From assembly GCA_003222675.1 (NCBI GenBank), contig QHWT01000050.1:86301-136401 (forward strand): a stretch of DNA of 50,101 bases, read 5' to 3'. Of this stretch, positions 31,774 to 34,700 are shown in pieces. The number at the start of each line of letters is the position of its first letter. Position 1 is the stretch's first letter. The notes below the pieces were generated by a model. The model searched no databases. It was not told the DNA's origin and was given only the letters and a program-made list of their open reading frames with translations. Position numbers and translations under genes: made by a program. This stretch comes from Acidobacteriota bacterium (GTDB taxonomy: Bacteria > Acidobacteriota > Vicinamibacteria > Vicinamibacterales > 2-12-FULL-66-21).

Positions 31774-34700
31774 CTACGAGCATTTGACCCCGAACTCCGC
31801 CGGTTCGTACGACAGGTTCGGCGAGAGCCACCTCTCTACCTCTTCAATGCTGATGCCGCGGCGCTGCGCGTACGACTCGGCCTGGTCGCGCCCGATGCGG
31901 CCGACGTTGAAGTACTTGGCTGACGGATGTGAGAAGTACAGCCCACTGACGCTGGCCGCCGGCGTCATCGCAGCGCTCTCCGTCAGCGCGAGCCCCTGCC
32001 GTTCGGCATCCAGGAGCTTGAAGAGTTGGAACTTGCCGCTGTGATCCGGGCACGCAGGATAGCCGTACGCGGGCCTGATGCCGCGGTGCTTCTCGACGAA
32101 GAGGTCGTCGATGTTGCGCGGCCCGACGTCGGGATGTCCCCAGTCGTCGCGCGCGTGCGCGTGCAGCCAGGTGGCGAACGCCTCCGCGAATCGATCCGCG
32201 AGCGCCTTCACGATAATCGCTTTGTAGTCGTCGTGATCCGCTTCGTAACGCCTCACCAGTTCGTGAGCCCCGAGTCCCGCGGTCACGGCGAACATGCCGA
32301 TGTAGTCGGGGATGCCGCTGCCGCGCGGCGCCACGTAGTCTGCGAGCGACAGGTTCGCCCGCGCATCGGGCTGCGCCTCCTGCTGACGGAGCATCGGGAG
32401 CCGCGCGAGCACCGTCCGGCGATCCTCATCCTTGTAAACGAGGATGTCGTCGCCATCTGCCGTCGCCGGCCAGAATGCGTAGACGCCGCGCGCCTGGAGC
32501 AGGCGCCCGTCGACGATCTCTTTCAACAGTGCCTGTGCGTGTTCGTAGAGCTCGCGTGCCGCGGGACCGTACTGCGGGTGATCGAGAATCGCCGGGAAGC
32601 GTCCCTTCAGTTCCCATGCGGAGAAGAAATATGTCCAGTCGATGAACTTCGCGAGGTCCGAGAGCGGCACGTCATCGAGGTACCGTCGTCCCACGAATGC
32701 CGGCGTCGCCGTTTCGTGATCGTCCCAGTCGTACTTCAAGCGGTTCGCGCGCGCCTGCTCGTAGGTGAGCAGCGGCTTCTCGCTTCGCGCCTTGTACCGT
32801 TCGCGGATGTCTTCCTGATTGTCGCGATTGCGGCGATCGAAGGCGGCGCGGCGGTCATTACTTAAAAGGTGGGCCACCACATCGACAACGCGCGACGCGT
32901 CGAGCACGTGCACGACGGGCGGCGTGTACTCCGGCGCGATCTTCACCGCCGTGTGCTGACGGCTCGTCGTGGCTCCGCCAATCAGCAGCGGCAGCTGCAT
33001 GTGACGGCGTTCCATTTCGCGCGCGACCATCACCATTTCATCGAGTGACGGCGTGATGAGGCCGCTCAGGCCGATCATGTCCGCCTTGCGCTCGATCGCA
33101 GTCTCCAGGATCTTCGCCGCCGGCACCATGACCCCGAGGTCGATCACCTCGTAGTTGTTGCACCCGAGCACCACGCCGACGATGTTCTTGCCGATGTCGT
33201 GAACGTCCCCCTTCACGGTGGCCATCACGATCCGGCCCTGCGCCGCCGAGGCGGTGGGGTCGGCCTCCATGAACGGCTCGAGATATGCGACGGCCTTCTT
33301 CATCGCGCGCGCGCTCTTGACGACCTGCGGCAGGAACATCTTGCCGGAGCCGAACAGCTCGCCGACGATCTTCATGCCGTCCATCAGCGGCCCTTCGATG
33401 ATGTCGAGCGGACGCGCGTACTTCTGGCGCGCCTCCTCGACGTCCTGCTCGATGTATTCGACCGTGCCGTGCACGAGCGCATGCGCGAGCCGCTTCTCGA
33501 CCGTTCCGTTCCGCCACGCGATGTCGATGTCTTTTTTCGTCCCGGCGCCTTTCACGGTATCGGCAAACTGCACGAGACGCTCGGTCGCGTCCGCACGCCG
33601 ATTGAAAATTACGTCCTCCACGCGCTCGAGCAGGTCCTTTGGGATGTCCTCATAGACGATGAGCTGACCAGCGTTGACGATGCCCATGTCCATGCCGGCG
33701 TGGATCGCGTGGAACAGGAACGCGGAGTGCATTGCCTCGCGCACCCGGTCGTTACCGCGGAAGGAGAACGACAGGTTGCTGACGCCGCCGCTGATCTTCG
33801 CGCCCGGGCATGTCGCTTTGATGATGCGCGTCGCCTCGATGTAGTTCACGGCGTAATCGTTGTGCTCTTCGAGCCCCGTGGCAATCGCGAGGATGTTCGG
33901 GTCGAAGATGATGTCGCTCGGATCGAAGCCTGCCTGCTCCGTCAGCAGCCTGTACGCGCGCTGGCAGATCTGCACCTTACGCCCGATCGTGTCGGCCTGG
34001 CCCGTTTCGTCGAATGCCATCACGATCACCGCTGCGCCGTACCGCCGTACGACGCGCGCCTTGTCGAGGAAGTCGGCTTCTCCCTCCTTCAAGCTGATCG
34101 AGTTGACGACGCCCTTCCCCTGGACGCACTTGAGGCCGGCTTCGATCACCGACCATTTCGAACTGTCGATCATCACGGGCACGCGCGCGATCTCGGGCTC
34201 CGTCGCGATGTAGTTGAGGAACGTCGTCATCGCGCGCTCGGAGTCGAGCATGCCTTCGTCCATGTTGACGTCGACGATGTTGGCGCCGCCGCGGACCTGG
34301 TCGAGCGCCACGTGCGCCGCCGCGGCCCAGTTGCCCGCCTTGATCAGCCGCGCGAATCGCACCGAGCCCGTCACGTTCGTCCGCTCGCCGATCATCTGGA
34401 AGTTACTGTCGGGACGGATGACAAGGGGCTCGAGGCCGGAGAGCTGCGTGAACGTATCGGGGTGCGGGGTGCGGGATCCGGGGTGCGCCGGGTTCTGGGG
34501 TCCTAGGTCGGTGAGCGTCCCGGATTTCGCGCCCCGCACCCCGCGCCCCGCGTCCCGGGGGCTTACACCTTCCACCGCCCGTGCTATCGCGGCGATGTGA
34601 TCGGGCGTCGTCCCGCAGCAGCCGCCGACAATGTTCACGAAGCCGCTCTCGGCGAAGTCGCGGACGAGCGCGCCGGTCTCCTCCGGGTGCTCGTCGTACT

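Follow-up and report, generated by a model that had tools for sequence, protein, structure and literature searches.

Inverted heptad arrays lie in frame in the metH linker and in loops of other enzymes of an acidobacterial genome

Most descriptions of seven-base short tandem repeats place them between genes, and palindromes are described as uncommon in coding DNA. In cyanobacteria, the heptanucleotide repeats in P6b of the tRNA-Leu intron, together with STRRs, are degenerate heptads of variable number that fold into hairpins; they are intronic or intergenic and untranslated, unlike the arrays considered here. G-rich heptameric repeats of the units GGGNATC in Xanthomonas and GGGGA(C/T)T in Nostoc were described by Rehm et al. 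(2015, PMC4692102), whose account gives 70 and 75 convergent inverted heptad pairs in two Xanthomonas genomes, retention of 83% of heptad sites between two Xanthomonas species, and a preference for intergenic sites, mostly between co-directional genes, with an intragenic share of 7-11% in Xanthomonas and about a third in Nostoc. In Geobacter metallireducens, 49 copies of an element with four GGGACCG units lie within and between genes as putative RNA regulatory elements (PMC2700814), and the TAACTGA heptads of Beggiatoaceae are dispersed, some of them in open reading frames, where they were suggested to be tolerable between protein modules (MacGregor 2015, PMC4679880). Rickettsia palindromic elements (RPEs; Ogata et al. 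2000, 2002) form families of ~150 bp with a conserved peptide (reviewed in PMC10969869).

The arrays analysed here are nearest in kind to the Xanthomonas/Nostoc heptads, with which they share a 7-base G-rich unit, genome-wide dispersal and convergent pairs of the same polarity (as described in PMC4692102), and nearest in effect to the RPEs, which likewise place palindromic DNA in frame within unrelated metabolic genes whose proteins tolerate it (as reviewed in PMC10969869); here it is heptad-array dyads that also occur in coding sequence. They were filed under neither system, because the unit, CGGGGTG rather than GGGNATC or GGGGA(C/T)T (PMC4692102), falls outside the Xanthomonas/Nostoc definition, and because the conserved sequence of 100-150 bp that characterizes RPEs was not seen, the longer matches reaching 72-77% and the loops lying within the range of shuffles. 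The RPE feature of in-frame insertion absent from orthologues was found at metH, uvrC and rimO, with leuS as an exception in frame. Placement in loops of housekeeping enzymes, preservation of the reading frame and the exchange of one unit for another at a given site go beyond the Xanthomonas/Nostoc account as far as it is known (PMC4692102). The Geobacter elements resemble the present ones as GC-rich heptad arrays at genic and intergenic sites, but form one alignable family, whereas protein loops and independent gains are features here (PMC2700814); the Beggiatoaceae repeats differ in being direct with one inverted case, in carrying stops in one orientation and in being mostly intergenic (PMC4679880). 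Nematomorpha mitochondria also have inverted repeats in coding genes with both arms translated, but as long perfect palindromes rather than heptad arrays (PMC6649704). The present genome encodes two Y1_Tnp genes, and the Y1 transposase flanked by repeats that is typical of REP/RAYT (TnpA-REP) systems was not found, there being no period-7 array within the ~3.3-kb loci of both genes. A search covering part of the literature found no report of heptad arrays from Acidobacteriota, nor of heptad dyads that form loops of proteins, which is a weak negative.

The window (the whole 50,101-nt stretch of DNA that was analysed) contains a metH gene with the following features:

31774-35547, minus strand: metH, cobalamin-dependent methionine synthase, 1257 aa (NCBIfam PRK09490, Pfam domains)
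34573-35499, minus strand: homocysteine-binding barrel, residues 17-325 (Pfam S-methyl_trans PF02574, E 7.8e-96)
34447-34554, minus strand: expanded linker, 36 residues between anchors 331 and 368, against 11 in human MTR (alignment)
34458-34487, plus strand: G-rich heptad arm, CGGGGTG CGGGGTG CGGGATC CGGGGTG and onwards (unit matches, complementarity)
34488-34527, no strand: inter-arm loop, 40 nt (arm boundaries)
34528-34557, plus strand: C-rich heptad arm, complement of CGGGACG CGGGGCG CGGGGTG CGGGGCG (unit matches, complementarity)
34465-34545, minus strand: predicted disordered stretch, residues 335-361, pLDDT under 50 (AlphaFold2 model mafa43f5b95a6)
33673-34389, minus strand: folate (pterin-binding) barrel, residues 387-625 (Pfam Pterin_bind PF00809, E 3.7e-59)

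The product scored 2000.9 bits against PRK09490 (cut-off 1497) with all five Pfam domains matched, and its frame is uninterrupted over the full 1257 codons, dyad included. The dyad at 34458-34557 consists of two inverted in-frame arrays of the unit CGGGGTG / CACCCCG, which along the direction of the gene read CGGGACG CGGGGCG CGGGGTG CGGGGCG, a loop and then the complements, mostly in sevens. The doublet CGGGGTGCGGGGTG is matched exactly at 34458-34471 on the plus strand, and with one mismatch on the minus strand at 34530-34543 and 34537-34550; these three matches at up to one mismatch compare with 0.08 expected, and none of 100 shuffles reached three. Complementarity is 80% over 30 nt between the arms 34458-34487 and 34528-34557, and 88% over 25 nt in an alternative pairing of 34458-34482 with 34519-34543. 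Since the Pfam matches cover residues 17-325 and 387-625, the arrays, at residues about 331-364, lie between the two barrels, the position that a previous sequence-only reading of this DNA had proposed for an in-frame dyad. Directly behind the metH stop, at 31705-31771, there is a separate pair of inverted AGCCACC-type arrays with 23-nt arms of 91% complementarity.

By alignment to human MTR the linker has 36 residues against 11 in the human enzyme, in agreement with the earlier estimate of about 36 residues in place of a short linker. The segment from GGCCGT to GERTN is 84 aa here and 60 aa in the same-genus relative G001, the comparison that the sequence-only reading had called for, in which the linker is short and free of heptad arrays; among 80 named-genome loci from many phyla it is 57-59 aa in 69 of the 76 that were readable, and period 7 was seen at the linker in two of the 76, both Acidobacteria. 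Tandem heptad units are clear in the arrays, but the in-frame surplus over G001 is 24 aa or 72 nt and so departs from the multiple of 21 bases that had been proposed as a mark of slippage, a weak test because the linker was replaced, not just lengthened. An AlphaFold2 model (20 sequences) has a mean pLDDT of 89.0, with residues 335-361 below 50, and a TM score (query length) of 0.93 against the human N-terminal half; the homocysteine and folate domains are thus predicted to be kept intact and the insert to be disordered, as the claim of intact flanking domains required. Solved structures describe the homocysteine/folate linker as short and rigid, one that 'zips' the two barrels into one rigid body (PMC10567725, PMC13376404). 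The earlier suggestion of tolerance at a domain boundary is supported, but this boundary is not a floppy one, so that a long disordered loop entering this rigid zip is more surprising than one at a flexible boundary would be. In two other genomes (L036 and L037, metH of G042 and G032) the same linker contains palindrome-like sequence without period 7.

The metH dyad is the coding version of a dispersed repeat, as had been claimed: CGGGGTGCGGGGTG has 154 exact matches over many contigs of the 7.16-Mb draft (G000), against none for the reversed control. Exact matches numbered 0 in the same-genus draft G001 (88% complete), 53 in G009 (another genus of the same family) and 18 in G052 (another family), and the doublet was present in 9 of 60 genomes, own counted. 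The dominant unit is CGGGGTG (GGGGTGC), with CGGGATC present only as a variant, and it is stop-free in all six frames, as are 50% of heptads. G-quadruplex formation in vitro is a mark of the Xanthomonas/Nostoc repeats; in the present arrays GGGG tracts recur every 7 nt. Across the 50-kb window, runs at 18 of 21 or more matches numbered four for period 7 and one for period 8, with none for periods 4-6 and 9-14 at 18/21. Relatives gave 11 period-7 runs in 185 kb, against 8 in 684 kb of metH loci from other phyla; period 7 itself is not peculiar to the group, since it also outnumbers every other period from 4 to 14 in the remaining named loci, though it is sparser there. Array lengths come from draft assemblies (here 152 contigs with 3.9% contamination), may be misstated, and in some cases concern arrays at contig ends. 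The best explanation for the metH insert is that it belongs to a population of dispersed heptad arrays, half of them dyads, that fills its own genome and, with other 7-base units, some relatives.

A census of 53 loci around array sites in the own genome, with units counted per cluster, gave 25 dyads and 25 single-armed clusters among 50. The G-rich array precedes the C-rich array in all 25 dyads, four of which have one stray unit. In 40 loci from G009 and G052, set beforehand as a test, seven dyads were found, all in G009 and none in G052 by the rule applied, and the G-rich array again came first in 7/7, one of them having two stray units. The claim of a constant polarity is restricted to the CGGGGTG type, because five pairs of adjacent arrays of other units read C-rich then G-rich. 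The arms of one dyad are no more alike than arms across dyads (permutation p 0.997, 26 pairs, at least one of which, L311 near 1956, combines arrays of two different units). Across the 25 own-genome dyads one arm tends to be CGGGGTG-rich and the other CGGGGCG-rich (Spearman -0.65, p 0.0005), and this T-rich/C-rich difference is oriented towards the flanking genes in 17 of 21 cases (p 0.007), a pattern noticed post hoc, in a count to which rows L273 and L310 were added by hand though scored single-armed (16/20 without L273); the three usable dyads in G009/G052 all have the same sense. The loops of 23 dyads have a mean pairwise score of 11.74 against 11.42 for shuffles, the largest of 60 shuffles giving 11.79, so that as a set they show no significant likeness and the clearly common part is the 7-base unit alone. 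Among the 206 matches to the metH element, the best one listed is 97% over 37 nt and covers one arm, while at least several other dyads match the element at 72-77% over the greater part of its length, and the seven best loop-spanning dyads share 19 to 30 identical loop bases with it.

Gain of an array at the metH linker is recurrent across the order, which the sequence-only reading had no means of seeing. Of 118 metH linkers read across the order, 13 show period 7 at 15/18 or better, where codon shuffling predicts 0.03, with period 8 in two and period 9 in four of the same linkers; a quick tree built from 117 flanking sequences requires at least 10 changes to account for the 13 array states. 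These arrays differ in unit between genomes (GCATCCC, GGCTCCC and AATCCCA, with AACTCCC and GAGCCAC in the linkers of G008 and G011 as read by eye), several are single-armed, and the encoded peptide is wholly different among genera. In the underlying search 129 of 162 genomes matched at threshold; the metH table holds 132 genomes, of which 118 gave linkers by the first pattern, 10 of the 14 other rows were read by a looser pattern (five of them apparently a paralogue), and G034 and G144 gave none. No period 7 at 15/18 or better occurred in the 10 looser-pattern linkers, and the named and order samples overlap in part (L092 and G016, for example, look like the same genome). In two genomes (L040 and L050, metH of G036 and G054) a second array site lies about 710 codons on, about 2140 nt past the linker start, that of G036 being an inverted pair.

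Five further genes of the own genome carry in-frame arrays, namely uvrC, rimO, a DEAH helicase gene, an AddA-like gene and an AddB-like gene of weak family match, and another in-frame array lies near the start of an ABC ATPase gene. The uvrC insert has 76 residues, with the RNase H domain matched as two stretches, and the rimO array lies between the UPF0004 and radical SAM domains. Several of these genes encode peptides resembling GAGxGVRGA..TPHPAPRTPDP, because the CGGGGTG unit yields such peptides in any frame. With 30 loci taken for each gene, and own included, 11 of 28 uvrC loci and 8 of 23 rimO loci that could be read show period 7 at the corresponding loop; in metH, uvrC and rimO alike, the unit of the arrays in the loop varies between genera. 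In the helicase, the loop at residues about 636-676, taken from AYVR to GFK, ranges over 47-96 aa among the 13 loci, of 20, that the pattern could read, own included, and the arrays therefore use loops already free in length; the own gene alone among these 13 reached the heptad threshold. In leuS (L306, G000:C42:28000-30387, 1964-2083) the assembly reads frame 0 before the dyad and frame 2 after it, reflecting either an assembly error or a real gene break, and some arrays are accordingly either misassembled or gene-breaking. The own helicase (L373) has a second insert of about 30 residues at residues about 153-187 without heptads, a site that spans 33-36 aa in 16 of 18 loci read, 68 in the own gene and 53 in G012. 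At the uvrC site of the other genus (L408, G009:C393:12060-12992, 873-924) there is a CGGGGTG-type dyad that is cut by the contig end.

The rimO gene provides a natural experiment on the formation and turnover of paired repeat arrays. In G000, G008, G010 and G003, one native segment (APVTFFRK, APLTFYSK, RPLTFHKK and VPVTFHRP, respectively) is flanked by complementary arms, each genome having its own unit, and the pairing of the arms at these four of ten loci exceeds all of 200 simple shuffles; the other six loci tested, including G009 with arms visible by eye, were not above the shuffles. Around APLRFHRK in the same-genus relative G001 the arms are of a further unit, so that the rimO unit differs even inside one genus. 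Similar segments are found in array-free genomes, for example G021 and G051, and an array is also present in G027, which was assembled as one contig of 6.5 Mb. Because arms of different units bracket native sequence that occurs with or without arrays, the rimO dyad is not a one-piece insert.

We consider the most probable explanation, at roughly 0.6, to be that dispersed arrays arise or are copied in, slip, pair, and survive in frame in free loops, with the encoded peptide being neutral. A short array would arise, or be copied in from elsewhere in the genome, would grow and shrink by replication slippage, and would be joined a short way downstream by a partner array on the opposite strand; survival within genes would need a unit that is stop-free in six frames, a total length that keeps the frame, and a loop or linker free in length, and the peptide would be a neutral by-product rather than a designed linker. 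We favour recombination, or template switching from one short shared repeat to another, over a dedicated transposase. In-place fold-back copying was tried as a source of the second arm and rejected, the arms of extant CGGGGTG dyads being if anything less alike than arms across dyads (26 pairs), though it may have acted early in the history of a dyad. A purely neutral account does not predict the systematic difference between arms and its orientation towards genes, both noted post hoc. An alternative in which a MITE- or REP-like mobile palindrome, comparable to the RPEs, was moved into metH in one piece by a Y1 or other transposase is unlikely: it would agree with the dispersal, inversion and constant polarity of the arrays, their in-frame position within unrelated genes, the absence of the metH array from the same-genus relative, the two Y1_Tnp genes and, among the matches listed, the several dyads whose match of 72-77% covers most of the metH element and some of its loop, but half of the clusters (25/50) are single-armed, the 23 loops score within the range of 60 shuffles, neither Y1_Tnp gene has a period-7 array in its ~3.3-kb locus, and the rimO arms flank a native segment. 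Thus, of the earlier proposal that the element can enter or expand within a gene, gain and tolerance are supported by the array-free metH of G001 and the intact flanking domains, while entry in one piece is not supported, and in rimO of the same genome the arms lie on both sides of native sequence.

The strong hairpin suggested for the metH message is borne out as a prediction of folding, the coding-strand RNA at the dyad giving -70.5 kcal/mol with z -3.59, but not as a function. Selection cannot be read from a fold z-score by itself, and a comparison of sense with antisense folds gave the hairpin reading no support: the sense fold was the weaker in 14 of 21 dyads (p 0.095), a non-significant trend in the wrong direction. 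Converging arms, their orientation with respect to genes in 17/21 and the regulatory roles proposed for gene-adjacent heptads in Geobacter and Xanthomonas (PMC2700814, PMC4692102) would fit a hairpin or quadruplex slowing or regulating translation, yet the dyad is absent from the same-genus metH, and metH-linker arrays vary in unit and are in several cases single-armed, which leaves retention for an RNA function improbable. There is very little to recommend the view that the insert was selected as a protein linker, as a source of new freedom for the barrels or of a binding surface. An enzyme whose normal linker locks the barrels could behave differently with about 25 residues more, and similar basic Gly/Arg/Pro peptides occur in several enzymes, but it is the DNA that is periodic, the peptide results from the unit whatever the frame and differs wholly among genera, and the insert is predicted to be disordered. 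An assembly or binning artefact would be consistent with a 152-contig draft of 3.9% contamination, the leuS frame and the arrays at contig ends, but is highly improbable given that the frame is kept in metH, uvrC, rimO, the helicase and the AddA- and AddB-like genes, and that arrays recur at these loops in other genomes, including rimO within the single 6.5-Mb contig of G027.

In this bacterium and several relatives a mostly intergenic repeat repeatedly becomes protein, in methionine synthase, nucleotide excision repair and ribosomal protein modification. More tentatively, and as a possibility that we hold to be rather less than even, transposase-free paired heptad arrays may be a continuing source of new protein loops in the order, with units that swap between species at fixed positions and arms that converge, even though they can enclose native coding sequence and are no copies of one another, and that are oriented towards transcription. 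If so, some process lays opposite-strand arrays in pairs and thereby writes loops of core enzymes.

The window contains several further repeats. Other period-7 arrays lie at 4776-4805, 9110-9164, 11843-11898 and 16347-16376, with the units GCTCCTT, CTCGGCC, CTCCTGC and TAGGAGC, respectively. Two similar CACGGAT-type dyads with arms of 28-29 nt, at 20563-20685 and 20860-20985, are about 300 nt apart, and a period-8 dyad (AATCGGGT) with 34-nt arms of 79% complementarity is found at 45589-45668. A 55-bp unit is repeated in five tandem copies with 95% matches at 8749-9027.
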